Below are positions 1,132 to 19,026 of a stretch of 39,699 bases of DNA, piece by piece. This stretch comes from Marinitenerispora sediminis (GTDB lineage: Bacteria; Actinomycetota; Actinomycetes; Streptosporangiales; Streptosporangiaceae). The notes beneath the pieces were generated by a model that had not been told where the DNA came from, did no database searches, and worked only from the letters and a program-made list of their open reading frames with translations. Location: positions 1-39,699 of the forward strand of contig NZ_QEIO01000050.1 of the NCBI RefSeq assembly GCF_003336425.1. Direction: 5' to 3'. Position numbers and translations under genes: made by a program. Position 1 is the first letter of the stretch, and every line of letters starts with the position of its first letter.

Positions 1132-1149
1132 TTGTGAAGCACTTCACAA
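1132..1149 (+). promoter_or_regulatory. Rex operator, perfect match
   Basis: TTGTGAAGCACTTCACAA matches the Rex consensus TTGTGAA-N4-TTCACAA at all 14 defined bases. Rex is the actinobacterial and Firmicutes repressor that binds DNA at low NADH/NAD+ and lets go when NADH rises. In Streptomyces it controls cydABCD, nuo and rex-hem genes. The site lies between the candidate -10 and the menJ-like start, so that gene should be induced when NADH accumulates. No rex gene is in the window. Confidence 0.85.
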
Positions 1150-2781: not shown

Positions 2782-3141
2782 ATGGAGCTGTACGCACCCA
2801 TATTCGTGCTCGGCGGGATCGGCGCGGCGTTCGTCGTCGTGTCGATGATCGCCGGCTCGCTGCTCGGGCCGAAGCGGTACAACCGCGCCAAGCTGCAGTC
2901 CTACGAGTGCGGCATCGACCCGACCCCGCAACCCGTCGGCGGCGGGCGCTTCACCATCAAGTACTACCTGACGGCGATGCTCTTCATCGTGTTCGACATC
3001 GAGGTCATCTTCCTCGTGCCCTGGGCGGTCCACCTCGACGCGCTCGGCGTCTTCGGCCTGGTCGCGATGGTGCTCTTCCTCGTCAACGTGTCGATCGCCT
3101 ACGCCTACGAGTGGCGCCGCGGAGGTCTCGAATGGGAGTGA
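2782..3141 (+). CDS. nuoA: NADH-quinone oxidoreductase subunit A
   Basis: The 119-aa membrane subunit of respiratory complex I has three predicted helices: IFVLGGIGAAFVVVSMIAGSL near the N-terminus, LTAMLFIVFDIEVIFLVPWAV in the middle and FGLVAMVLFLVNVSIAYAY near the end. The family signature KLQSYECGIDP with the following FDIE is present. The conserved Cys of the YECG loop lies near the quinone site at the arm junction. This is the first gene of a complete nuoA-N operon, and its length is normal. The leader carries the Rex-like operator, and AGGAGGGG stands before the start. Confidence 0.97.
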   Translation: MELYAPIFVLGGIGAAFVVVSMIAGSLLGPKRYNRAKLQSYECGIDPTPQPVGGGRFTIKYYLTAMLFIVFDIEVIFLVPWAVHLDALGVFGLVAMVLFLVNVSIAYAYEWRRGGLEWE

Positions 3142-3231: not shown

Positions 3232-3785
<554 letters not shown>

Positions 3786-3789
<4 letters not shown>

Positions 3790-4547
3790 GCCCCGTCGAC
3801 AACCGCCAAGGCAACCCTAACCTGGACGAGAGGGGAGAACTCCCCATTCGGGCAGGTGAGGAACGTCTCAGTTCCCCTGTCGCGCGCAAGGGGATGTTCG
3901 GCGCCAGGACGAGCGGCGACACCTCCGGGTACGGCGGCCTGGTCGTCCGCCGGTCGGTTCCGCTGGGCGACGAACGCCCCTTCACCGACCCCGACGACCC
4001 GCGGACCGCGTCGTTCGACGAGGTCGCCGACAACCTGGAACACGCGCTCAAGGAGGACGGCCTCGCCCTCACCGACGCGGTGGAACGCGTCGTCGTGCAC
4101 CACGGCGAGATGACTCTGCACGTCCGCCGGGAGCACCTGGGCGCGGTCGCGCGGCGGCTGCGCGACGACCCGGCGCTGCGGTACGAGCTGTGCCTCGGGG
4201 TCGCCGGCGTGCACTACCCGCACGACACCGGCCGGGAGCTGCACGCCGTCTACGAGATGCGGTCGATCACCCACAACCGCGAGCTCCGGCTGGAGGTGTC
4301 CTGCCCCGACTCCGACCCGCACATCCCCTCGATCGTGGACGTCTACCCCACGAACAACTGGCACGAGCGGGAGGCGTGGGACTTCTTCGGCATCATCTTC
4401 GACGGCCACCCGGCCCTGACCCGGATCCAGATGCCGGACGACTGGCGGGGCCACCCCCAGCGCAAGGACTACCCGCTGGGCGGCATCCCGGTGGAGTACC
4501 GCGGCGCGAAGATCCCGCCGCCGGACGAGCGGAGGTCCTACGCGTGA
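3786..4547 (+). CDS. nuoC: NADH-quinone oxidoreductase subunit C
   Basis: The 253-aa peripheral subunit of the connecting arm is the 30-kDa subunit family. The signature is visible as [18 protein letters not shown], then [16 protein letters not shown]. The first 70 residues (polar, starting [12 protein letters not shown]) are an extension often seen in actinobacterial NuoC; the conserved domain begins at about residue 80. The gene overlaps nuoB by 4 nt. It ends 49 nt before the ATG at 4597 where NuoD translation appears to begin. Confidence 0.95.
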
Positions 4548-4596
4548 CGACACGACCGACCGACCCGCGCAGTGGAGTGAGGAGGGGAGCGCGACC

Positions 4597-4788
4597 ATGA
4601 GCACGACCTCCGGCGATGTCTACGTCGATGTGTCCGGCGGGGACGGGGACGTGGAGCGGCGAGCCGACGAGCGTGCGGAGCCGTCGGTGCCCGTTCGCGA
4701 AGCGCTCTCGCGTCGGCGGGCGGTGCCGAGCGGCTCGTTGTCAACATGGGACCGCAGCACCCGTCCACCCACGGCGTCCTGCGGCTGA
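4597..4788 (+). other. Out-of-frame NuoD N-terminus (apparent frameshift)
   Basis: ATG 4597 has the strong ribosome site AGGAGGGG upstream and encodes [20 protein letters not shown], which resembles the VYxVxGGDWDEV opening of actinobacterial NuoD. This frame runs to a stop at 4788. The rest of NuoD, including the ERLVVN that normally precedes [10 protein letters not shown], is one frame back. That frame has no ATG, GTG or TTG between its stop at 4578-4580 and ATG 4746. The two frames join most naturally near 4702-4712, giving ...VREAL then [18 protein letters not shown]. No XXXYYYZ slippery site was seen. One missing base in the assembly, or a real mutation, explains it most simply. Confidence 0.6.
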
Positions 4789-5942
4789 TCCTCACCCTGG
4801 ACGGCGAGACGGTGACCGAGGCCCGGGTGGGCATCGGCTACCTGCACACCGGCATCGAGAAGAACCTCGAGTACCGGACGTGGACGCAGGGCACCACGTT
4901 CGTGACCCGCATGGACTACCTCATGCCGATCTTCAACGAGACGGTGTACTGCCTCGCGGTGGAGCGGCTGCTCGGCATCACCGAGCGGGTCCCGGAGCGG
5001 GCCAACGTCATCCGGGTGCTCATGATGGAGCTGAACCGGATCTCCTCCCACCTCGTCGCCATGGCGACGTTCGGCATGGAGCTGGGCGCGACCACGATCA
5101 TGACGAACGGCTTCCGGGAGCGGGAGCTCGTCCTCGACATCTTCGAGATGGTCACCGGCCTGCGGATGAACCACGCCTACGTCCGGCCGGGCGGCGTGGC
5201 CCAGGACCTGCCCGCCGGGGCGGTGGGCAAGATCCGGGAGTTCCTGGCCGAGATGCCCAAGCGGCTGACCATCATGCGCAAGCTGCTGGACGCCAACCCC
5301 ATCTACCTGCGCCGGACCCGCGACGTGGCCCACCTCGACCTCGCCGGGTGCATGGCGCTGGGGGTCACCGGCCCCATGTTGCGGGCCGCAGGTCTCGCAT
5401 GGGACCTGCGCAAGGCGAAGCCGTACTGCGGATACGAGCACTACGAGTTCGACATCCCGGTCTCCGACGGGTGCGACGTCTACGCGCGCTACCGCGTCCG
5501 CATCGCCGAGATGGAGCAGAGCCTGCGGATCGTCGAGCAGTGCCTGGACCGGCTCGCCCCCGGGCCGGTCATGATCGACGACGCCAAGATCGGCTGGCCC
5601 GCCCAGCTCGCCATCGGCGCCGACGGCATGGGCAACTCCCCGGACCACATCGCGCACATCATGGGCACGTCCATGGAGGCGCTGATCCACCACTTCAAGC
5701 TGGTGACCGAGGGCTTCCGGGTGCCGCCGGGCCAGGCGTACGCGGCGATCGAGAGCGCCAAGGGCGAACTGGGCTGCCTGGCCGTCAGCGACGGCGGACC
5801 GCGGCCGTACCGGGTGCACTTCCGGGACCCGTCGTTCACGCACCTCCAGGCGGTGGCGGCCATGTGCGAGGGCGGGACGGTGGCCGACGTCATCGCCGCC
5901 GTGGCCAGCATCGACCCCGTCATGGGCGGGGTGGACCGATGA
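4746..5942 (+). CDS. nuoD: NADH-quinone oxidoreductase subunit D (start region frameshifted)
   Basis: The 49-kDa subunit forms the quinone pocket with NuoB. The main body is intact: [45 protein letters not shown] and the C-terminal [12 protein letters not shown]. His residues of GPQHPSTHG lie at the quinone site. The open frame with an ATG gives 398 aa, shorter than usual because the N-terminal 40-50 residues are in another frame starting at 4597. ATG 4746 has no ribosome site. If the frameshift is a sequencing error, the true product starts at 4597 and is about 448 aa. If real, a shorter protein could arise by internal initiation or recoding. The stop overlaps an ATG at 5939. Confidence 0.9.
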
Positions 5943-5989
5943 GCGGGACGGCGCGGAGCAGCAGCGGAGCAGAGGGAGGAGCGGCAGCC

Positions 5990-6727
5990 ATGAGCGGTAC
6001 AGACGGCCAGGCGAGCACGTCCACGGGCGGCTTCTCCGACGAGGCGCGCGCCCGGCTGGAGGTCGACGCCAAGGAGATCATCGCGCGGTACCCCAAACCG
6101 CGCTCGGCCCTGCTGCCGCTGCTGCACCTGGTGCAGGCGGAGGAGGGGTTCGTGAGCACGGCGGGCATCGCGTTCTGCGCCGAGCAGCTCGGCATCACCA
6201 CGGCGGAGGTCACCGCCGTGGTCACCTTCTACACGATGTACAAGCGCCGGCCCACCGGCGAGTACCACGTCGGCGTGTGCACCAACACGCTGTGCGCGGT
6301 CATGGGCGGGGACGAGATCTTCGCGGCCCTCAAGGAGCACCTCGGGGTGGGCAACGACGAGACCACCGAGGACGGCCGGGTCTCCCTGGAGCACATCGAG
6401 TGCAACGCGGCCTGCGACTACGCGCCGGTGATCATGGTGAACTGGGAGTTCTTCGACAACCAGACCCCGGAGTCCGCGAAGCGGCTGGTCGACGACCTGC
6501 GTCTCGGCCGGGACGTGCGGCCGAGCCGCGGGCCCGACGCGCTGTGCACCTGGAAGCAGGCGTCCCGGGTCCTCGCCGGGTTCTCCGACGGCCACGGCGC
6601 CGAGGGCGTCCAGGCCGGCGAGCCGTCGCTGGTCGGCCTGCGGCTGGCCCGCGAGCGCGGGTGGCGCGCACCGGACCCGGCGGCCGTCCGGGCGGCGGGC
6701 GACGGCAGCGAGGGGGAGGCCCGATGA
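5990..6727 (+). CDS. nuoE: NADH-quinone oxidoreductase subunit E
   Basis: The 245-aa subunit of the NADH dehydrogenase module holds the [2Fe-2S] cluster N1a. The ligands are visible as CTNTLC and CNAAC, spaced as in the thioredoxin-like family. ATG 5990 was chosen because GGGAGGAG lies at a good distance upstream. ATG 5939 overlaps the nuoD stop as ATGA and would add 17 residues rich in Ser, Gly and Ala, so it cannot be excluded. A C-terminal tail of about 80 residues after the ferredoxin fold (from [20 protein letters not shown]) is longer than in Escherichia coli. The end overlaps nuoF by 4 nt. Confidence 0.94.
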
Positions 6728-8052
6728 GCCCCGCGAACGCGCTGACCCCGGTCCTCTCCCGCGGCTGGGAGCGGCCCGACTCCTTCACCCTCGACGCCTA
6801 CCGGGCCGACGGCGGCTACGAGGCGCTGCGCGCCGCGCTGCGCCGCGACCCGGGGGAGCTGGTGGAGCTGGTCAAGTCCTCCGGCCTGCGCGGCCGCGGC
6901 GGCGCGGGGTTCCCCACCGGCATGAAGTGGGGCTTCCTGCCGAAGGACAACCCCAACCCGCGCTACCTGGTGGTCAACGCCGACGAGTCCGAGCCGGGCA
7001 CCTGCAAGGACATCCCGCTGCTGCTGGCGAACCCGCACGTGCTCGTGGAGGGCATCGCCATCGCCAGCTACGCGATCCGCAGCAACCACGCGTTCGTCTA
7101 CGTGCGCGGCGAGGTGCTGCACGTCATCCGGCGGCTGCGCGACGCGGTGGCCGAGGCCTACGAGGCGGGTCTGCTCGGCACCGACATCCTCGGCAGCGGG
7201 TTCGACCTGGACGTCGTGGTGCACGCCGGCGCCGGCGCCTACATCTGCGGCGAGGAGACCGCGCTGCTGGACTCGCTGGAGGGCTACCGCGGGCAGCCGC
7301 GGCTGAAGCCGCCGTTCCCGGCGGTCGCCGGCCTGTACGCCTCGCCGACCGTGGTGAACAACGTCGAGTCGATCGCCAGCGTCCCGAGCATCGTGGCCAA
7401 CGGCGCCGACTGGTTCAGCGCGATGGGCACCGAGAAGTCGGCCGGGTTCGGGTTCTTCTCGCTGTCCGGGCACGTCACCCGGCCCGGGCAGTACGAGGCG
7501 CCGCTCGGGATCACGCTGCGCGAGCTGCTGGACATGGCCGGCGGCGTGCGCGCCGGGCACCGGCTGAAGTTCTGGACCCCGGGCGGCTCCTCCACGCCGA
7601 TCTTCACGGACGAGCACCTCGACACCCCGCTGGACTTCGAGTCGGTGAGCGCCGCCGGGTCGATGCTCGGCACCCGCGCCCTGCAGATCTTCGACGAGAC
7701 GACCTGCGTGGTGCGCGCGGTCGGCCGGTGGATCCAGTTCTACGCCCACGAGTCCTGCGGCAAGTGCACGCCGTGCCGCGAGGGCAATTACTGGATGGTG
7801 CAGGTACTGGACCGGCTGGAGGCCGGGCGGGGGACCGAGGCCGACCTCGACAAGCTGCTGGACATCTGCGACAACCTGCTCGGCCGCTCGTTCTGCGCCC
7901 TCGGCGACGGGGCGACGAGCCCGGTGACGTCCTCGATCAAGTACTTCCGGCAGGAGTACATCGACCACCTCGAACAGGGCGGCTGCCCGTTCGACCACAG
8001 CAGGTCGACCGCGTGGGCGACGACCGAGCGGAAGGAGGGGCGGACCCCGTGA
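6724..8052 (+). CDS. nuoF: NADH-quinone oxidoreductase subunit F
   Basis: The 442-aa subunit binds NADH and FMN and holds the [4Fe-4S] cluster N3; it is the entry point for electrons. The NADH/FMN glycine loop [15 protein letters not shown] is at about residues 57-71, followed by [12 protein letters not shown] and [19 protein letters not shown]. The cluster motif [12 protein letters not shown] is near residue 345, with the fourth Cys in [13 protein letters not shown]. Length and motif order are normal. The ATG overlaps the nuoE stop and the stop overlaps the nuoG GTG, so the E-F-G module is translationally coupled. Confidence 0.97.
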
Positions 8053-10535
8053 CCGTCACCACGAACACCGCCTCGGGCGGCACGCCGGCCGTGCCGCCGG
8101 AGGACCTGGTCACCGTCACCATCGACGGCTTCCAGGTGCGGGTCCCCAAGGGGACGCTGATCATCCGGGCCGCCGAGCTGCTCGGCATCCAGATCCCGAG
8201 GTTCTGCGACCACCCGCTGCTCGACCCGGTCGGCGCCTGCCGGCAGTGCCTGGTCGAGGTCCCCGACATGGGTAACGGGCGCGGCATGCCCAAGCCGCAG
8301 GCCTCCTGCACCACCACCGTCATGGAGGGCATGGTGGTGCGCACCCAGCTCACCTCCCCGGTGGCGGAGAAGGCGCAGCGCGGGATCATGGAGTTCCTGC
8401 TGATCAACCACCCGCTGGACTGCCCGGTCTGCGACAAGGGCGGCGAGTGCCCGCTGCAGAACCAGGCCATGTCCACCGGGCAGGGCGAGACCAGGTTCAC
8501 CGAGGCCAAGCGGACCTTCCCCAAGCCGATCGCGCTGTCCACCCAGGTACTGCTGGACCGCGAGCGCTGCATCCAGTGCGCCCGCTGCACCCGGTTCTCG
8601 GCGCAGATCGCCGGCGACCCGTTCATCGAGCTGCTGGAGCGCGGTGCGCAGGAGCAGGTCGGCATCGCCGAGGGGCAGCCGTTCCAGTCCTACTTCTCCG
8701 GCAACACGGTGCAGATCTGCCCGGTCGGCGCGCTCACCGGCGCGGCCTACCGGTTCCGCTCCCGCCCCTTCGACCTCGTCTCCACGGCCGGGGTGTGTGA
8801 GCACTGCGCCTCCGGTTGCGCGCAGCGCACCGACCACCGGCGCGGGAAGGTGACGCGCCGGCTCGCCGGCGACGACCCGCAGGTCAACGAGGAGTGGAAC
8901 TGCGACAAGGGCCGGTGGGCCTTCACCTACGCCACGCAGCCCGACCGGCTGCGCCGGCCCCTGGTCCGCGACGAGGAGAGCCGCGCGCTGGAGACCGCGT
9001 CCTGGCCCGAGGCGGTCTCCACGGCCGCCGCCGGGCTCGCGCGGGCCCGCGGCCGGGTCGGCGTCCTGGTCGGCGGGCGGCTGACCCTGGAGGACGCCTA
9101 CGCCTACGCCAAGTTCGCGCGGACCGCGCTGCACACCAACGATGTCGACATGCGGGCCCGCGGGCACTCCGCGGAGGAGGCCGAGTTCCTCGCCGCCCGG
9201 GTCGCCGGCACCGGTCTGAGCGTCCGCTACGAGGACCTGGAGCAGGCCCCGGCGGTGCTGCTGGCCGGCTTCGAGCCCGAGGAGGAGTCCCCCGTGGTCT
9301 TCCTCCGGCTGCGCAAGGCCGTCCGGAAGCGGGGGCTGCGGGTCTTCTCGCTCTCGCCGTTCGTCAGCCGCGGGCTGGCGAAGGTGCGCGGAACCCTGCT
9401 CCCGACCGCGCCGGGCGCGGAGGCCCGGGCCCTGAACCGGCTGGACGAGTCCGCCCCCGAGGTCCTGGAGGCGCTGCGCGAGCCGGGCGCGGTCATCCTC
9501 GCCGGCGAGCGGCTGGGCGAGATTCCCGGGGCGCTCTCCGCGGTGGCGCGGCTCGCCGACCGCACCGGCGCCCAGCTCGCCTGGATCCCGCGCCGGGCGG
9601 GCGAGCGCGGCGCGGTCGAGGCCGGGGCGCTGCCCAACCTGCTGCCCGGCGGCCGGCCGGTCTCCGACGCGACCGCGCGGGCCGAGGTCGCCCGGCTCTG
9701 GACCGCCGGCGAGCTGCCGGCCGCCGAGGGCCGCGACACCGCTGGCATCCTGGCCGCGGCGGCGGCCGGCGAACTCGGCGCGCTGGTCATCGCCGGGGTG
9801 GACCTCGACGACCTCCCCGACCCGCGCGCCGCGCGCGCGGCGCTGGCCCGGGTGCCCTTCGTGGTCAGCCTCGAACTGCGGGCCAGCAACGTCACCGACC
9901 GCGCCGACGTGGTCTTCCCGGTCGCGGCCGTGGCCGAGAAGTCCGGCACGTTCCTCGACTGGGAGGGGCGGGAGCGGCCGTTCGACGACGCGCTGAAGGT
10001 CCCCGGTTCGCTGTCCGACCTGCGGGTCCTCGGCGCGATCGCCGACGCCATGGACGTGCACCTCGGCCTGCCCGACGCCGCGGCCGCCCGCCGCGAGCTG
10101 GCCGGCCTGGGCGCCTGGGCCGGCGAGCGGGTCCCCGACCCGCTGGTCCGCCCCGCCGCGGAGGCCGCGCCCGAACGCGGCCAGGCGGTGCTCGCCACGT
10201 GGAGCCGGCTGCTCGGGCGCGGCCGCATGCAGGACGGCGAACCGCACCTGGCAGGGACGGCGCGTCCCACCGTCGCGCTGTTGTCCGCCGGGACCGCCGC
10301 CGAGATCGGGCTGGCCGACGGCGGGCGGCTGCGGGTCGCCGGCCCGCACGGCTCGGTCAGCGTGCCGGCCGTGGTCACCGAGATGCCGGACCGGGTGGTC
10401 TGGCTGCCCGCCGACGCCCGCGACTGCGCGGTGCGCGCCGACCTGGGAGCCGGCGCCGGGGAGCTGGTGACGCTGGCCGTCGACGAGAGTTCCGGCGCGA
10501 CCGCGCCGGCGACGAGTGCGGGGAGCGAACGATGA
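8049..10535 (+). CDS. nuoG: NADH-quinone oxidoreductase subunit G
   Basis: The 828-aa iron-sulfur subunit carries electrons from NuoF toward the connecting arm. The N-terminal [2Fe-2S] domain shows [16 protein letters not shown] and ASCTT. The His/Cys-ligated cluster motif is [20 protein letters not shown]. The next cluster is [10 protein letters not shown] with CPVGALTG. A further CEHCASGC with a later Cys in [10 protein letters not shown] corresponds to the extra cluster N7 site found in only some NuoG. The C-terminal 500 residues are the molybdopterin-oxidoreductase-like fold, which has lost its cofactor. GTG 8049 overlaps the nuoF stop. Confidence 0.95.
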
Positions 10536-11914
10536 CGCCCGACACGCTCGACGCGCGGGCCGGCCACGCCCTCGCGGCCGCGGCCGAGCCCGGATTCGCC
10601 GCGTTCGGCACCGACCCGTGGTGGATCACGCTGATCAAGGCCCTCGTGATCTTCGTCTTCCTCATGGTCTGCGTGATCCTCATGATCATGGCGGACCGCA
10701 AGGTCATGGGGCGGATGCAGCAGCGGCACGGCCCCAACCGGTTCGGCCCCTGGGGGCTGCTCCAGTCGCTCGCCGACGGGGTGAAGCTGTCCCTCAAGGA
10801 GGACCTGATCCCCCGCAAGGTGGACCGGGTCGTCTACATCGCCGCGCCGATGATCTCCGCGATCCCGGCGTTCATGGCGTTCTCCGTGATCCCGGTCGGG
10901 CCCGAGGTGACGATGTTCGGCGTCCAGACGCCGCTGCAGCTCACCGACCTGCCCATCGCGGTGCTGCTCGTCCTGGCCACCGCCTCCATCGGCGTCTACG
11001 GCATCGTGCTCGCGGGCTGGGCCTCGCAGTCGCCCTACCCGCTGCTCGGCGGGCTCCGGGCGTCGGCGCAGGTCATCAGCTACGAGATCGCCATGGGCCT
11101 GTCGTTCGTGGCGGTGTTCATCTACGCGGGCACGCTCAGCACCTCCGAGATCGTCGACGCGCAGCGGCCGATCTGGTTCGCGGTGGTGCTGTTCCCGTCG
11201 TTCGTGATCTACCTCATCACCATGGTGGGCGAGACCAACCGGCTGCCGTTCGACCTCGCCGAGGGCGAGGGCGAGCTGGTCGGCGGGTTCATGACCGAGT
11301 ACTCCTCGATGAAGTTCCTGCTGTTCTTCCTCGCCGAGTACGTGAACATGGTGACCGTCGCGGCGCTCTCGGTGACGCTGTTCCTCGGCGGCTACCTGGC
11401 ACCGCCGCCCATCACCACGTTCTGGGCCGGCGCCAACGAGGGCTGGTGGCCGGTGCTGTGGTGGCTGCTGAAGTTCCTCGCGGTCATGTTCCTGTTCATC
11501 TGGCTGCGCGGGTCGCTGCCCCGGGTCCGCTACGACCAGCTGATGCAGCTCGGCTGGAAGCTCCTCATCCCGGTCCAGCTGGTGTGGATCACCGCCGTCG
11601 CCGTCATCCGGGTGATGCGCAACGAGGGCGCCCCGCCCGTGGCGCTGGGCGCCGTCATCCTCGGCTTCTTCGTGGTGACCCTGGCGGCGCTGGCCGCCTG
11701 GAGCCGCGCCGCGGACCGGCGGCGCGCGGCCGAGGACGCCGAGCACGCCGAGCGGATACGCGCGCTGCGCGAGGACCCCATGCACGGGGGGTTCCCCGTG
11801 CCGCCCATGGACGCGCCGCACTACGGCAGCAGCGTCCCGGCCGAGGAGCTGCGCTCCGCGCGGCCGGCCCCGACGCCCCCGACCGACAAGCGTGAGGAGG
11901 TTACCGGTGCTTGA
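10532..11914 (+). CDS. nuoH: NADH-quinone oxidoreductase subunit H
   Basis: The 460-aa membrane subunit joins the two arms and shapes the quinone channel. The family motifs [51 protein letters not shown] and the late [14 protein letters not shown] are present, with eight or so hydrophobic helices between residues 30 and 395. The last 65 residues are a hydrophilic tail ([15 protein letters not shown] to [13 protein letters not shown]) absent from E. coli NuoH but usual in actinobacteria. The gene overlaps the nuoG stop by 4 nt. Confidence 0.96.
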
Positions 11915-12476
11915 CTGGCTCAACCCCGTGAAGGGGTTCGGTGTCACCTTCCACACCATGTTCAAGAAGGTCGACACCGTCGAGTACCCCGAGGTGAAGG
12001 CGCCCACGATGCCGCGCTTCCACGGGCGGCACCAGCTCAACCGCTGGCCGGACGGCCTGGAGAAGTGCATCGGCTGCGAGCTGTGCGCGTGGGCGTGCCC
12101 GGCCGACGCCATCTACGTGGAGGGCGGCGACAACACCGAGGACGAGCGGTTCTCGCCCGGTGAGCGCTACGGCCGGGTGTACCAGATCAACTACCTGCGG
12201 TGCATCCTGTGCGGGCTGTGCATCGAGGCATGCCCCACCCGTGCGCTGACCATGACCAACGAGTACGAGTTGGCCGACGACAGCCGCGAGAGCCTCATCT
12301 GGACCAAGGAGCAGCTGCTCGCCCCGCTGCAGGAGGGGATGGAGGCGCCGCCGCACCCCATGCGGCTCGGCGAGTCGGAGGAGGAGTACTACCGGATGGG
12401 CCGCGCCACCGGCACCCCGAGCGGCGGGGCCGGTGAGTCCACCGGGACCGAACGGAACAGCGAGGCCGTCCGATGA
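11907..12476 (+). CDS. nuoI: NADH-quinone oxidoreductase subunit I
   Basis: The 189-aa ferredoxin-like subunit holds clusters N6a and N6b. Two 4Fe-4S motifs are present: [12 protein letters not shown] (Cys54, 57, 60, 64) and [12 protein letters not shown] (Cys99, 102, 105, 109). GTG 11907 was chosen because GAGGAGG at 11894-11900 sits 6 nt upstream; the in-frame GTG at 11892 would include the ribosome site. The start lies inside the last codons of nuoH. The C-terminal 40 residues are polar and Gly/Ser-rich. Confidence 0.96.
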
Positions 12477-13420
12477 CCGCCGCCGCGGCACAGGCCACCG
12501 CCCTCGCCGCTCCCGTCTCGGGCGCCGAGAGCGCGGCCTTCTGGATCATCGGCACCATCGTGGTGCTCGCCGCCATGGGCGTGGTGTGCAGCCGCAAGCC
12601 CGTCTACTCGGCGCTGATGATGGCCGTGGTGATGATCGGGCTGGCCGCGTTCTACGGCATCAACCAGGCGCCGTTCCTGATGGTCGTGCAGATCGTCGTC
12701 TACACCGGCGCGGTGCTGATGCTCTTCCTGTTCGTGCTGATGCTCGTGGGTGTCAGTTCGGCGGACTCCCTGGTGGAGACGATCCGCGGGCAGCGGGTGC
12801 TCACCGCCGTCATCGCGGTGTGCTTCCTGGGGGCGCTGGGCCTTGGCCTGACCCGGATCGCGGTCGCGGAGCCGGCCGGCCTCGCCGCGGGAACCGCGGC
12901 GGCGGGCGGCAACGTGCCGTGGATCGCGGGCGAGATCATCTACCGCTACGTGATCGCCTTCGAGGCCACCGGCGCGCTGCTGGTCACCGCGGTCCTGGGC
13001 GGACTGGTCCTGGCGCACTCCGAGCGGCTGAAGCGGCGGCGCACCCAGAAGGACCTGTCCCAGGAGCGGGTCCGCGGCGACCACGTCGCCCCGCTGCCCG
13101 CCCCCGGCACCTACGCGCGGCACAACGCCATCGACATGCCCGCGCTGCTGCCCGACGGGTCGGTCGCGGAGCTCTCGCTGAATCCGGTGCTCACCGCGCG
13201 GGACCCCCGCTACCAGTCGCGGGTACCCGACGACGTGCGGCTGGGCGCTGCGCCCGAGCCGGGCGGCGCCTCGGACTCGGCGACCTCGAAGGAGGGCCAC
13301 GCCCTGCGGGAGGGCCCGAACGGCGACGGCGACTCCGGCGCCGCGGTGGCCGACGGCACCGACGGCGACGGCGGCGGCACGGCAGGCGGACAGGGAGCGG
13401 GGCGCTCGTGGACCCGATGA
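12473..13420 (+). CDS. nuoJ: NADH-quinone oxidoreductase subunit J
   Basis: The 315-aa membrane subunit is part of the proton-pumping arm. Five hydrophobic helices occupy about residues 20-185, including [44 protein letters not shown] and the late [20 protein letters not shown]. The family's YTGAV segment, with its unwound helix, is present. After the last helix there is a tail of about 130 residues, charged and low in complexity, ending in Gly/Asp-rich sequence; E. coli NuoJ has no such tail. The ATG overlaps the nuoI stop. Confidence 0.95.
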
Positions 13421-13707
13421 ACTACATCGTGCTGGCGGCGATCGTCTTCACGATCGGCGCGGTCGGCGTCCTGGTGCGGCGCAACGCGATCATCGTCTTC
13501 ATGTGCGTGGAGCTGATGCTCAACGCCTGCAACCTGGCGTTCGTCAGCTTCGCGCGCATGCACGGCAACATCGAGGGCCAGGTCATCGCGTTCTTCGTGA
13601 TGGTCGTGGCGGCGGCCGAGGTCGTCGTGGGCCTGGCGATCATCATGCAGGTCTTCCGGACACGCAGGTCCGCGTCGGTCGACGACGCCAACCTGCTCAG
13701 GCACTAG
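13408..13707 (+). CDS. nuoK: NADH-quinone oxidoreductase subunit K
   Basis: The 99-aa membrane subunit, an MrpC homologue, has three helices. The conserved glutamates of proton transfer are visible in [15 protein letters not shown] and [17 protein letters not shown] 13408 (VDPMNYIVL) gives the family's usual 99 residues and the usual M/V-xPxNY opening. ATG 13417 would give 96 residues and overlap the nuoJ stop exactly by ATGA, so it is an alternative. Confidence 0.95.
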
Positions 13708-13722
13708 AGGGGCGGGCCGGAC

Positions 13723-15669
13723 GTGCTGTCATACCTTGCCGCGGAGCCGCACGCGGTCACCGCGGCGGCCGACGGGGTGGTCCACTCCACCGCCTGGCTC
13801 ATGATCGCGTATCCGCTCGCCGGCGCCGCGGTCCTGCTGCTCGGCGGCCGGCGCACGAACGCCTGGGGGCACTGGCTGGCGGTCGCGATGTCGCTGGCCG
13901 CCTTCGTGTGGGCGGCGCTCTCGCTGGTCCAGCTGCTCGGGCTGGACCCGGCCGAGCGCAGCCGCTCGGTGCACGTGTACGAGTGGCTGACCGCGGGCTC
14001 GCTCACCATCGACATCAACCTGCTGATCGACCCGCTGTCGATCACGTTCGCGCTGCTGATCACCGGCGTCGGGTCGCTGATCCACATCTACTCGGTCGGC
14101 TACATGGCCGAGGACCCGGGCCGGCGGAGGTTCTTCGGCTACCTCAACCTGTTCGTGGCGGCCATGCTGGTGCTGGTGCTGGCCGACAACTTCGTGCTGC
14201 TCTTCCTCGGCTGGGAGGGCGTCGGCCTGGCGTCCTACCTGCTCATCGGGTTCTGGCAGCACAAGCCGTCGGCGGCGGTGGCGGCCAAGAAGGCGTTCCT
14301 CATCAACCGGGTGGGCGACATGGGCCTGCTCATCGCGATCATGCTGATGTTCGGCACCTTCGGCACCCTCGCCTACGCCCCGGTGTTCGCCTCGGCCGAC
14401 GCCGCCGGGAGCGCGGTGACGACGGTGATCGGGCTGCTGCTCCTGCTCGGCGCGTGCGGGAAGTCCGCCCAGCTGCCGCTGCAGGCGTGGCTGCTGGACG
14501 CCATGGAGGGCCCGACCCCGGTCTCGGCGCTGATCCACGCGGCCACCATGGTGACCGCCGGCGTGTACCTCATCGTGCGCTCGGGCCCGATCTTCGAGGC
14601 GGCGCCGACCGCGCAGCTCGTGGTGACCATCGTCGGGGCGGCCACGCTGCTCGCCGGTGCGGTCATCGGCTGCGCGAAGGACGACATCAAGAAGGCCCTG
14701 GCCGGCTCCACGATGAGCCAGATCGGCTACATGACGCTGGCCGCCGGTCTCGGCCCGATCGGCTACGCGGCCGCCATCGCGCACCTCGTCACGCACGGCT
14801 TCTTCAAGGCGGGGCTGTTCCTCGGCGCCGGTTCGGTCATGCACGGCATGAACGACGAGGTGGACATGCGCCGCTACGGCGGGCTGCGCACCGCCATGCC
14901 GGTCACCTTCGCCACCTTCGGCATCGGCTACCTCGCCATCATCGGGTTCCCGTTCCTGTCGGGGTGGTGGACCAAGGAGGGCATCATCGAGGCCGCGTTC
15001 GCCTCGGGCGGGGTGACCGGCCAGGTCCTCGGCTGGGCCGCGCTGCTCGGCGCCGGGCTCACGGCGTTCTACATGTCGCGCGTGATGTTCATGACGTTCT
15101 TCGGCGAGCGGCGCTGGGCGGCCGACGCCCACCCGCACGAGTCGCCGCGCTCCATGACGCTGCCCATGGTGGTGCTCGCGGTGGGGTCGGTCGCGCTCGG
15201 CGCGGTGCTGGTGTACGGCTACCGCTTCGCCCTGTTCCTGGAGCCGGCGGTGGGTGCCGCGGAGCACCACGAGTTCAGCCTCGCCACCCTGCTGACGAGC
15301 TGGACCAGCCTCACCGCGCTCGCCTTCATGGTGGCCGGCGTCGCGTTCGCCTGGGTGCGCTACGCCCGGGCGCCGGTGCCGCGCACGGCGCCGCGCGGCA
15401 GCTTCGTCACGGTGGCGGCCCGCAACGAGCTGTACGGCAACACCCTCAACGAGGAGCTGTTCATGCGGCCCGGCCAGGCGCTCACCGCCGCGGCGGTGAG
15501 CTTCGACGAGAAGGTGGTCGACGGCGTGGTCGACGGTGTGGCACGCGGCGTCCGGGACAGCTCCGAGGGGCTGCGCCGGATGCAGACCGGCTTCGCGCGC
15601 AGCTACGCGCTGTCGATGCTCTTCGGCGCGGCGGTCGTGGTCGCCCTGCTGGGGGTGAACCTTGTCTAG
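13723..15669 (+). CDS. nuoL: NADH-quinone oxidoreductase subunit L
   Basis: The 648-aa antiporter-like subunit at the distal end of the membrane arm shows the Mrp/NuoL core. [20 protein letters not shown] is followed by [18 protein letters not shown], with the functional Glu, and by [39 protein letters not shown] and [21 protein letters not shown] complete the conserved block. The C-terminal region after residue 540 carries the lateral helix and last anchor. GTG start with GAGGGG upstream. Length is normal. Confidence 0.96.
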
Positions 15670-15754
15670 ACGGTCGGCCGGCGGTCCAGACCGCGGTCCC
15701 AGCGGCCTCTCCGGCCCGCGCGGTGAAGTCCCCATCCAGCACGTGAGGTCCTGA

Positions 15755-17365
15755 ATGTCCATCCCCTGGCTGACACTCGCCATCGCGCTGCCGGCGCTGG
15801 GCGCGCTGGTGGTCGCGCTGCTGCCCCGCGAGCGGGCCGAGCTGGGCCGGCGGCTGACGCTGGGCGTCACGCTGGCCACGCTGCTGCTCGTCGTCGCGAT
15901 GGCGTTCAACTTCGACCCCTCGGGTCCGCGGTTCCAGTTCGAGGAGGTCATCCCCTGGATCCCGCGGTTCGGCGTGTACTACGCGGTCGGCGTGGACGGC
16001 ATCGCGCTGCTGCTGATCGTGCTCTCGGCGCTGCTGGTCCCGCTCGTCGTGCTGGCCGCCTGGCGGGAGCGCGACGACAACGGCGGCACACCGGGCGCCG
16101 CCGGCTCCGCCGACGCGGAGCGGGCCGGCTCGGGCAACGGCTACTTCGCGCTGATCCTGCTGCTCGAAGCCATGATGATCGGCGTCTTCGCCGCCATGGA
16201 CGTCTTCCTGTTCTACGTCCTGTTCGAGGCGATGCTGATCCCGGTCTACTTCATGATCGGCCGCTACGGCCGGGGCGCCGAGCGGCGGCGCGCCGCCGTG
16301 AAGTTCCTGCTGTACAGCCTCTTCGGCGGGCTGCTCATGCTCGTCGCGGTCATCGGCGTCTACGCGCTGAGCGCCCGCTCCGGCGCCGGCACCTTCCTGT
16401 GGGCCGACCTGGTGGGCGCCGACGGCGCGCTCGCGGGCCTCGACCCCGCGACCGCGCGCTGGCTGTTCCTCGGGTTCTTCATCGCGTTCGCGATCAAGGC
16501 GCCCATGTGGCCGGTGCACACCTGGCTGCCCGGTGCGGCCGGCTCGTCGCGGCCCGGTACCGCGGTACTGCTCGTGGGCGTGCTGGACAAGGTCGGCACC
16601 TACGGCATGCTGCGCTACTGCCTGGAGCTGTTCCCCGAGGCCGCGCGGTGGTTCGTCTGGCCGGTCGTGGTGCTCAGCCTGGTCAGCATCGTCTACGGCG
16701 CGGTCCTGGCCATCGGGCAGAGCGACATGATGCGGCTGATCGCCTACACGTCGGTGTCGCACTTCGGGTTCATCACCCTGGGCATCTTCGCGATGACGAC
16801 CCAGGGGCAGTCCGGCGCGGCGCTGTACATGATCAACCACGGGTTCTCCACCGGGGCGCTGTTCCTGGTGGCGGGCTTCCTGATCGCCCGGCACGGCACC
16901 GGGGCGATCGCCGACTACCAGGGCGTGCAGAAGGCGGCCCCCCTGCTCGCCGGGACCTTCCTGGTGGCCGGGCTCTCCAGCCTCGCGCTGCCCGGCCTGT
17001 CGCCGTTCGTCAGCGAGTTCCTGGTGTTCGTCGGGACGTTCGCCTTCCACCCGGTGCCGGCGGTCATCGCCAGCGTCGGCGTGGTGCTGGCGGCGCTCTA
17101 CATCCTGTGGATGTACCAGCGCACCATGACCGGGCCGCTGCCGCCGGCGCTGTCCCGGCTGCGGGACCTGTCCGGACGCGAGCTGTGGGCGGTCGGCCCG
17201 CTGATCGCGGTCATCATCGCCTTCGGGGTCTACCCCAAGCCCATGCTGGACGTCATCAACCCGGCGGTCGAGCAGACCATGCAGCAGGTCGGGGTCTCCG
17301 ACCCCGCTCCGGCGCTCGGACACGTCGACCAGGCCGCCAACGGCGGGGAAGGAGCGAGCGAGTGA
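15755..17365 (+). CDS. nuoM: NADH-quinone oxidoreductase subunit M
   Basis: The 536-aa antiporter-like subunit has the conserved FYAVGVDGIALLLIVLSALL-type segment, FYVLFEAMLIPVYFMIGRYG (functional Glu), AIKAPMWPVHTWLPGA and MRLIAYTSVSHFGFI. A polar insert of about 25 residues (RERDDNGGTPGAAGSADAER) sits in a loop after the third helix. The 85-nt gap from nuoL is one of the larger ones in the operon and has no clear promoter or terminator. The stop overlaps the nuoN GTG by 4 nt. Confidence 0.96.
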   Translation: MSIPWLTLAIALPALGALVVALLPRERAELGRRLTLGVTLATLLLVVAMAFNFDPSGPRFQFEEVIPWIPRFGVYYAVGVDGIALLLIVLSALLVPLVVLAAWRERDDNGGTPGAAGSADAERAGSGNGYFALILLLEAMMIGVFAAMDVFLFYVLFEAMLIPVYFMIGRYGRGAERRRAAVKFLLYSLFGGLLMLVAVIGVYALSARSGAGTFLWADLVGADGALAGLDPATARWLFLGFFIAFAIKAPMWPVHTWLPGAAGSSRPGTAVLLVGVLDKVGTYGMLRYCLELFPEAARWFVWPVVVLSLVSIVYGAVLAIGQSDMMRLIAYTSVSHFGFITLGIFAMTTQGQSGAALYMINHGFSTGALFLVAGFLIARHGTGAIADYQGVQKAAPLLAGTFLVAGLSSLALPGLSPFVSEFLVFVGTFAFHPVPAVIASVGVVLAALYILWMYQRTMTGPLPPALSRLRDLSGRELWAVGPLIAVIIAFGVYPKPMLDVINPAVEQTMQQVGVSDPAPALGHVDQAANGGEGASE

Positions 17366-19026
17366 ACCCGCTGCCCCACACGGCGCTCGCCGCGCCGGTC
17401 ATCACCACGCAGCCGCCGCAGATCGACTACGCGCTGCTCGCGCCGCTGCTGGTCGTCTTCGCGGCCGGCGTCATCGGAGTCCTCGTCGAGGCGTTCGTGC
17501 CCCGGCCGCGGCGCCGGGCGGTCCAGTTCACCCTGGCGGCACTCGCCCTGGTGGCGGCCTTCGTGCTCACCGTCGTGCGGGTGGCGCTGCTGCCCGCCGG
17601 CGGGGCCGGACTCACGGTCGCCTCGGCGAGCATCGCCGTGGACCGGCCGACGCTGTTCTTCCAGGGCACGATCCTGGTCATGGCCATCGCCAGCCTGCTG
17701 CTCATCGCCGAGCACCGCCACGGCGAGAGCGCGTTCGCGGCGCAGGCCGCCACGGTGCCCGGCAGCGAGGAGGAGCGCGCGCACGTACTGGCCGGCTCGC
17801 AGCACACCGAGGTCTACCCGCTGGTGCTCTTCGCGGTGCTGGGCATGCTGATGTTCCCGGCGTCCAACGACTTCCTCACCATGTTCATCGCGCTGGAGGT
17901 CATGAGCCTGCCGCTGTACCTGCTGTGCGGGCTGGCCCGCCGCCGCCGGCTGTTCTCGCAGGAGGCGGCGGTCAAGTACTTCCTGCTCGGCGCGTTCTCC
18001 TCGGCGTTCTTCCTGTTCGGCATCGCGATGGTCTACGGCTACGCCGGGTCGGTCAACTTCGCGGTCATCCACGACACGGTGGCCGCGGGCGGCGCCGGCG
18101 CCCTGCCCGGCGGCGGCCCGCTGCTGCTGCTCGGGATCGCCCTGGTCGGTGTCGGCCTGCTGTTCAAGGTCGGGGCCGTCCCGTTCCACAGCTGGAAGCC
18201 CGACGTCTACCAGGGGGCGCCCACCCCCATCACCGCACTCATGGCCTCGGGCACCCTGGTGGCGGCGTTCGGCGCGCTGCTGCGGGTGTTCTACGTCGCC
18301 TTCGGCGGCTCGGTCGCGGAGTGGCGGCCGATGATGTGGGTCGTGGCGGTGCTCACCATGGTGCTGGCCGCCGTGGTCGCCGTCACCCAGCGCGACATCA
18401 AGCGGCTGCTCGCCTACTCCTCCGTGGTGCACGCCGGGTTCGTCCTCACCGCGGTGGTGGCCGCCAGCGCCGAGGGGCTGGCCGGTGCCATGTTCTACCT
18501 GGCCGCGTACGGGTTCACCACGGTGGGCGCGTTCGCCGTGGTCACCCTGGTCCGGGTGCACGAGGGCGGCGCGGAGTCCGGCGACATCGCGTCGTGGGCG
18601 GGCCTGGGCCGCACCTCGCCGGTGCTCGCCGGGTCGCTCGCGCTCTTCCTGCTCGCCTTCGCCGGCATCCCGCTGACCAGCGGATTCATCGGGAAGTTCG
18701 CGGTGTTCGAGGCCGCCGTGTCGGCCGGCGCCACCCCGCTCGTGGTGGTGGGCGTGCTGAGCAGCGCGGTCACCGCGTTCTTCTACGTCCGGATCATCGT
18801 GCTGATGTTCTTCGCCGAGCCGGCGGAGGCGCGGCCTCGGGTGCTGCGGCCGGGGCGCCTCACCGGCGCCGTGATCGGGGTCGGCGTCGTGGCGACGCTG
18901 GTGCTCGGCGTCTTCCCCGGCCCGGTGCTCGACCGCCTGTCGCCCGCGCCGGGGGCGGGAACGGCCGAGGCGCAGAGCGTTCCGGGCGGGTTCGCGACCA
19001 CCGCCGACCTGTTCGCGAACCGATGA
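17362..19026 (+). CDS. nuoN: NADH-quinone oxidoreductase subunit N
   Basis: The 554-aa antiporter-like subunit shows FLTMFIALEVMSLPLYLLCG (functional Glu), VGAVPFHSWKPDVYQGAPTP and TQRDIKRLLAYSSVVHAGF in family order, with about 14 helices. A polar loop of about 30 residues after TILVMAIASLLLIAEHRHGE is longer than in E. coli. GTG 17362 overlaps the nuoM stop. This is the last nuo gene. It is followed by a promoter-like sequence and a strong dyad rather than by a clear terminator. Confidence 0.96.
   Translation: MNPLPHTALAAPVITTQPPQIDYALLAPLLVVFAAGVIGVLVEAFVPRPRRRAVQFTLAALALVAAFVLTVVRVALLPAGGAGLTVASASIAVDRPTLFFQGTILVMAIASLLLIAEHRHGESAFAAQAATVPGSEEERAHVLAGSQHTEVYPLVLFAVLGMLMFPASNDFLTMFIALEVMSLPLYLLCGLARRRRLFSQEAAVKYFLLGAFSSAFFLFGIAMVYGYAGSVNFAVIHDTVAAGGAGALPGGGPLLLLGIALVGVGLLFKVGAVPFHSWKPDVYQGAPTPITALMASGTLVAAFGALLRVFYVAFGGSVAEWRPMMWVVAVLTMVLAAVVAVTQRDIKRLLAYSSVVHAGFVLTAVVAASAEGLAGAMFYLAAYGFTTVGAFAVVTLVRVHEGGAESGDIASWAGLGRTSPVLAGSLALFLLAFAGIPLTSGFIGKFAVFEAAVSAGATPLVVVGVLSSAVTAFFYVRIIVLMFFAEPAEARPRVLRPGRLTGAVIGVGVVATLVLGVFPGPVLDRLSPAPGAGTAEAQSVPGGFATTADLFANR

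Follow-up and report, generated by a model that had tools for sequence, protein, structure and literature searches.

The window, i.e. the whole stretch of DNA analysed here (39,699 nucleotides from Marinitenerispora sediminis, which make up the entire contig C386), carries a menaquinone methyltransferase gene, a geranylgeranyl reductase family gene (ggr, with its product GGR) and a complex I cluster, all on the forward strand. The features are as follows.

151–861, + strand: menG/ubiE, demethylmenaquinone methyltransferase (NF001241, 368.4 bits; cut-off 327)
861–921: two tandem hairpins after menG (RNA fold of 855–925, −62.6 kcal/mol, z −5.6)
1111–1116, + strand: predicted −10 box TAGACT, called from conservation, 15 nt before the operator
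1132–1149, + strand: Rex operator TTGTGAAGCACTTCACAA (0 mismatches to the consensus TTGTGAANNNNTTCACAA)
1248–2579, + strand, GTG start: GGR, geranylgeranyl reductase family flavoprotein (TIGR02032, 265.5 bits; cut-off 158.8)
2670–2687, + strand: weaker Rex operator, the second of the window: TCGTGAAGGCAATCACAA (2 mismatches), in the gap that separates ggr from nuoA
2782–3141, + strand: nuoA, complex I subunit A (NF005922, 205.1 bits; cut-off 155)
3232–3789, + strand: nuoB (NF005012, 249.9 bits; cut-off 116)
3786–4547, + strand: nuoC (NF005856, 391.5 bits; cut-off 224)
4548–19026, + strand: remaining complex I cluster (a Pfam scan of long frames, covering subunits other than nuoD, G and K, gave domains of NuoE, F, H, I and J together with three antiporter-like subunits)

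An earlier note on this DNA had placed a reductase first behind the operator with nuo after it, and the gene order agrees: GGR is followed on the same strand, after a gap of 205 bp, by nuoA. The gap also holds a 46-codon ORF (2639–2779), which overlaps the second operator and has no match in Pfam or NCBIfam. On the other side, a terminator pattern scan found no terminator with a T-run after menG, and the hairpins there are perhaps a terminator type beyond the coverage of the scan tool. Since these tandem hairpins are strong, menG is probably transcribed separately from ggr-nuo.

Rex and its candidate sites in the genome

The site at 1132–1149 matches all 14 defined bases of TTGTGAANNNNTTCACAA. 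In the window, two sites with at most 3 mismatches were found, while 0.07 are expected from 100 shuffles. When the genome was scanned (6,010,989 bases in 441 contigs, 99.3% complete), TTGTGAAGCACTTCACAA was the sole 14/14 match in 6.01 Mb, and the sites with at most 3 mismatches numbered 31, compared with 8 for a reversed control pattern. If bases are taken as independent, with the 72.6% GC of the window, the expected number of perfect matches in a genome is about 0.0002. A chance match at 1132–1149 was rejected on the shuffles, the reversed genome control, this base-composition expectation and the permuted palindromes described below; the second site of the window, at 2670–2687, is likewise poorly accounted for by chance. 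The sites with at most 2 mismatches (one perfect, two with 1 mismatch and three with 2) lie at the following places.

0 mismatches: before ggr-nuo (window, 1132–1149)
1 mismatch: before an NDH-2-like pyridine nucleotide-disulphide oxidoreductase gene (contig C47)
1 mismatch: before a WhiB-family gene, protein start MDWRHH (contig C434)
2 mismatches: before the atp operon (contig C36, L004)
2 mismatches: before nuoA (window, 2670–2687)
2 mismatches: before rex

The C47 oxidoreductase matches Pfam Pyr_redox_2, from which we infer its NDH-2-like character, and its NCBIfam match (TIGR03169) is under the cut-off. The WhiB-family gene is presumably wblE. In the atp operon, atpB was identified by Pfam and atpI by position only, and the ORF adjoining the site has no family match. 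One target does not fit: cyd is the classical one in Streptomyces, but around the cydA matches on contigs C258 and C119 a scan allowing up to 3 mismatches found no Rex-like site. The genome encodes Rex itself (contig C428; NF003992, 384.9 bits; cut-off 226), and this protein matches solved Rex chains in PDB with E-values down to 3.5e-47. The direct targets of Rex in Streptomyces avermitilis include nuoA1-N1, rex-hem, wblE, atpI-C and ndh2 (PMC5355995). Since the six sites listed above precede similar targets, the motif appears to trace the Rex regulon in M. sediminis as well. The perfect Rex operator proposed in the earlier note is thereby borne out by the match itself, by the Rex gene and by the company of the other close sites, to which its conservation is added below.

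Conservation of the operator and promoter geometry

To describe the region upstream of ggr, 235 GGR loci were gathered from three sources: 56 of 57 matching genomes among 60 relatives (a fragment in G014 was left out), 80 of 217 named GGR loci, and a class sample of 177 genomes, 152 of them with a match, from which the listed places above about 430 bits were taken and three fragments left out. Removal of 4 duplicates gave 231 loci, and 7 with less than 150 nt upstream were also dropped. Loci with nuoA within 700 bp of GGR and at least 150 nt upstream form the adjacent set (n = 168). An operator with at most 2 mismatches lies upstream of GGR in 162 of these 168 loci. As the loci are related to one another, these counts do not represent independent events. 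Ranked by their best upstream site, 63 loci have a perfect match, 53 have 1 mismatch, 46 have 2 and 2 have 3, and 4 loci have no site. For palindromes permuted from the same letters, a site with no more than 2 mismatches is found in 0.13 loci on average, with a maximum of 4 of 168; this control was run with a narrower scan ending at the first aligned GGR residue, in which 159 of 168 loci have the operator.

The operator is present in 25 of the 26 families having the ggr-nuoA arrangement. The sole exception (f9) is represented by one genome, G046, which is 99% complete and in which rex was not detected. The genera with operator, ggr and nuo in this order include Nocardiopsis, Murinocardiopsis, Microbispora, Nonomuraea, Actinomadura, Frankia, Kribbella, Micromonospora, Salinispora, Saccharopolyspora and Pseudonocardia. 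The six adjacent loci without a site of at most 2 mismatches are two from Cellulomonas (3 mismatches each) and those of L151 (a MAG), G046, G210 and G111, with none. Another 56 loci, in which nuoA is more than 700 bp off, was not found or would lie past the contig end, were counted apart; no site was found upstream of GGR in 52 of them, and L152, L153, L154 and L162 have one.

The sigma-70 consensus found no match in a promoter scan of the window, so the call of the −10 box rests on conservation among relatives. In 145 of 159 loci a TAVVCT hexamer lies no more than 36 nt before the operator, at a distance of 7–17 nt in 143 of them, but only 11 of 802 control windows contain one, and the remaining 14 loci have TANNNT 9–15 nt from the operator. 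From TAGACT at 1111–1116, the transcript start is predicted at about 1121–1124, which puts the operator at about +10 to +27, where it is placed to block the predicted promoter; Rex would then repress by blocking the initially transcribed region. A transcript start downstream of 1149, which the earlier note had named as an observation that would speak against its claim, looks unlikely with this geometry. Directly 3' of the operator, within the predicted early transcript, there is a conserved block, GCGTACGAG (1150–1158). Counting from operator base 1, C at 24, G at 25 and A at 26 are found in 52, 51 and 55 of the 63 perfect-site loci, and the block is less conserved in loci with 1–2 mismatches.

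The second operator, which is absent from the earlier note, has a narrower distribution. In the clade of the window (loci with GGR identity of at least 74%), the GGR-nuoA gap contains the core GTGA-N6-TCAC in 15 of 19 loci, compared with 5 of 157 other loci, and each of 11 permuted cores gave 0 in the gaps of the clade. The gap as a whole aligns poorly, and the site stands out in it as an island. Its half-sites, TCGTGAA and ATCACAA, are those of the footprinted atpI operator of S. avermitilis (PMC5355995). A possible −10 hexamer is found in 38 of 173 GGR-nuoA gaps, and with the 205-bp gap in the window, nuo may also be transcribed from a promoter of its own.

Streptomycetaceae show a different arrangement. 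In all 15 loci that show both genes (14 from Streptomyces and 1 from Wenjunlia), the distance between GGR and nuoA is 1.7–2.4 kb, no operator was found before GGR, and nuoA is preceded at 51–157 bp by a site with 2 mismatches. In the four loci shown, the region upstream of the Streptomyces GGR keeps the TAGACT hexamer and the operator is absent. At the one locus inspected for intervening genes (S. lucensis, L089), a reversed ORF (3937–4830, − strand) lies between GGR and nuoA, which we take from its motif to be possibly an NlpC/P60-type hydrolase. In L120, a MAG labelled Streptomycetales, GGR is beside nuoA and a site is present in an extended scan. The commonest nuoA site of Streptomycetaceae, TTGTGACCTGCTTCACAT, is identical to the Rex-footprinted nuoA1 sequence of S. 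avermitilis (PMC5355995).

Taken together, Rex control of ggr-nuo is well supported by the genomic evidence, and we consider 1132–1149 to be probably (roughly 0.8) the main Rex operator of a ggr-nuo unit, with repression released by NADH and with GGR most likely a menaquinone reductase. The strongest competitor, to which we give somewhat less than even odds, holds that the operator serves nuo only and that GGR is a passenger whose level has no effect on menaquinone saturation, in which case Rex would not alter saturation. Rex control of nuo is established (PMC5355995), and where the two genes are apart, in the 15 Streptomycetaceae loci, it is nuoA that keeps the operator and GGR that lacks it, which would be expected if only nuo counts. 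The position of the operator before GGR in 162 of 168 loci, with GGR kept adjacent, argues against a passenger, although the first position in an operon predicts the same pattern. With the ggr-nuo unit as the preferred reading, the question turns to the function of GGR.

The reductase and its probable substrate

The earlier note had called the first gene MenJ-like, and this stands at the level of the superfamily: GGR shares the flavoprotein superfamily of mycobacterial MenJ (NF045655; PMC5936774) and would act on the same substrate class. A closer assignment failed. Against the MenJ equivalog model NF045655, GGR scores 239.1 bits with a curated cut-off of 700, so its filing as MenJ was rejected, and it belongs to a distinct subfamily with 32–37% identity to 20 sampled MenJ-type genes. 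The GAGP and LLPGYGW motifs of GGR are kept in 15 aligned relatives. No other protein of the genome passes the TIGR02032 cut-off, and the match after GGR reaches 96.6 bits.

The two types exclude each other. In the class sample, the MenJ model at E 1e-60 covers 148 genomes, of which 42 contain a MenJ-type protein (more than 500 bits), 106 have only matches below 280 bits, and 0 have both. Genus g99 has the MenJ-type and the nuo-linked type in different species (G132 and G152). Mutual exclusion with the MenJ-type, together with the menG and nuo neighbours, suggests the same role for GGR, i.e. saturation of the menaquinone tail. From this neighbourhood, the exclusion and its standing as the sole TIGR02032 protein, we infer that GGR is a menaquinone side-chain reductase. 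In Corynebacteriales, the presence of menJ tracks saturated menaquinone (PMC5936774). Among the 42 MenJ-type loci, 20 were sampled, and in these no upstream Rex site and no nuoA beside the gene were found (some contigs end soon after); among sampled loci, Rex control thus seems to go with the nuo-linked type only.

GGR might instead act on a different isoprenoid, for instance a prenyl diphosphate or a polyprenyl lipid. The score under the MenJ equivalog cut-off would allow this, the superfamily includes archaeal lipid and chlorophyll reductases, and among solved chains a digeranylgeranylglycerophospholipid reductase (3oz2) scores best. Nevertheless, we regard such a substrate as unlikely, for the neighbours of GGR are menG and complex I, the genome has no second geranylgeranyl reductase over the TIGR02032 cut-off, the MenJ-type and the GGR type never occur together in the 148 genomes, and MenJ tracks saturated menaquinone in Corynebacteriales (PMC5936774). 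Menaquinone is kept as the most likely substrate in what follows.

Probable Rex control of ggr-nuo and known systems

The presence of rex was compared with that of the operator in loci of the genomes that had been searched for Rex. Where rex is present, the operator is found in 123 of 124 adjacent loci, the exception being G111 (Rex 270 bits, gene order present). Only four adjacent loci come from genomes in which rex was not detected, and the operator is absent in 2 of them and kept in 2 from incomplete genomes. Those without it are G046 (99% complete; L054) and G210 (94% complete; L244), in which GGR is beside nuoA, and the G046 locus retains the TAGACT box. Those with it are G035 (74% complete) and G101 (94% complete). 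Since the congeners G052 and G073 have rex, the gene of G101 may simply be missing from its assembly. The direction of these counts agrees with a Rex operator, although few loci come from genomes lacking rex. In a further genome, G061, neither rex nor a site before GGR was found, and the contig ends before nuoA would be visible.

This comparison bears on whether the palindrome could be a CRP/GlxR-type site bound by a cAMP-receptor-like regulator. The CRP/GlxR motif TGTGA-N6-TCACA is contained in the Rex consensus, and the core GTGA-N6-TCAC, which occurs in 164 of the 168 loci, fits both families. The decision lies in the bases outside this shared core, since a CRP consensus would favour other bases at positions 1, 7, 12 and 18. 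When loci were selected by the core, with positions 1, 2, 7, 12, 17 and 18 left unselected, T1, A7, T12 and A18 were found in 153, 164, 159 and 165 of 167, which fits Rex and departs from CRP; judged by sequence, A7 and T12 are the Rex half-site. Furthermore, the other close matches of the genome trace the Rex regulon, the operator is absent in 2 of the 4 adjacent loci of genomes without detected rex, and variants of the form TCGTGAA-N4-TTCACGA, which occur in other families, share the half-sites of the hppA site of S. avermitilis, whose probe was bound by Rex in gel shifts (PMC5355995). A CRP/GlxR site is thus judged improbable. Still less credible is an RNA hairpin in the transcript in place of a DNA operator: folding is better than in shuffled sequence for the 2670 region (z −2.55, with 4 of 200 shuffles as good) but not for the 1132 region (z −0.91), and among 15 relatives the pairing of the 2670 flanks is kept at the innermost pair in 15, at the fifth in 13 and at the fourth in 10, whereas the other five pairs are kept in only 4–9 and the operator core is kept, so this was judged very unlikely for either site.

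With Rex as the favoured regulator, the following mechanism can be proposed. RNA polymerase would start near 1122 from a housekeeping-type promoter with TAGACT as its −10 box. At a low NADH/NAD+ ratio, Rex would bind at about +10 to +27 and block initiation or promoter escape. When NADH rises, by oxygen limitation or by a supply of reductant beyond the use of respiration, Rex would be released, and transcription, probably reading through from ggr into nuo, would yield both complex I and the quinone-tail reductase. In the clade of the window, the weaker operator before nuoA may add a second layer of control. The reaction of GGR is most likely the hydrogenation of isoprene units of menaquinone; complex I, which reduces the quinone, and GGR, which finishes it, would then be adjusted together.

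Rex control of menaquinone saturation, with its degree set by NADH, is plausible on this basis. Menaquinones with partly saturated side chains serve as a taxonomic marker for actinobacteria, and an operator before both a candidate reductase and complex I makes such control testable. A broader proposal is tentative and, in our estimate, rather doubtful: in the many actinomycete families with ggr before nuo, Rex might make the chemistry of the quinone pool, along with the amount of complex I, depend on NADH/NAD+, as an ancestral trait that was lost in Streptomyces. If it is true, rising NADH raises the side-chain reductase, more saturated menaquinone matches the extra complex I, and Streptomyces lost the ancestral redox control once ggr and nuo were separated by a gene in reverse orientation.

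The Rex regulon derived from Streptomyces misses a gene that is apparently under Rex in 25 sampled families. The comparative Rex study by Ravcheev et al. (2012), of all papers the likeliest to include it, may already list the ggr-nuo operon. The earlier note had described Rex control of a quinone-saturating enzyme as little described, which fits the open-licence literature, where no paper linking Rex with ggr or menJ was found, including the portions consulted of PMC5355995, PMC5478893, PMC9686282, PMC5936774 and PMC4172946. Rex was first characterised in Streptomyces (PMC5355995), where ggr, by its position, appears to lie outside the Rex-controlled unit; this exception would account for the silence of the literature.

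Among known systems, ubiE, ggr and nuo are likewise neighbours in Actinomyces oris (PMC5478893), and that paper has 0 occurrences of Rex. A close parallel is nuoA1-N1 of S. avermitilis, likewise a complex I operon with a Rex operator of the same consensus, at which NADH reduces Rex binding (PMC5355995). The listed distance from that operator to nuoA1 is 147 bp, and its footprint runs from −42 to −16 (PMC5355995). The atpIBEFHAGDC operator of S. avermitilis, TTGTGATACGGTTCACGA on the other strand, has half-sites equal to those of the second site of the window (PMC5355995); it controls ATP synthase, and M. sediminis also has a site before its atp operon. Compared with S. avermitilis nuoA1, the window differs in having a perfect site before GGR, past the predicted transcript start, in addition to a weaker site at nuoA.
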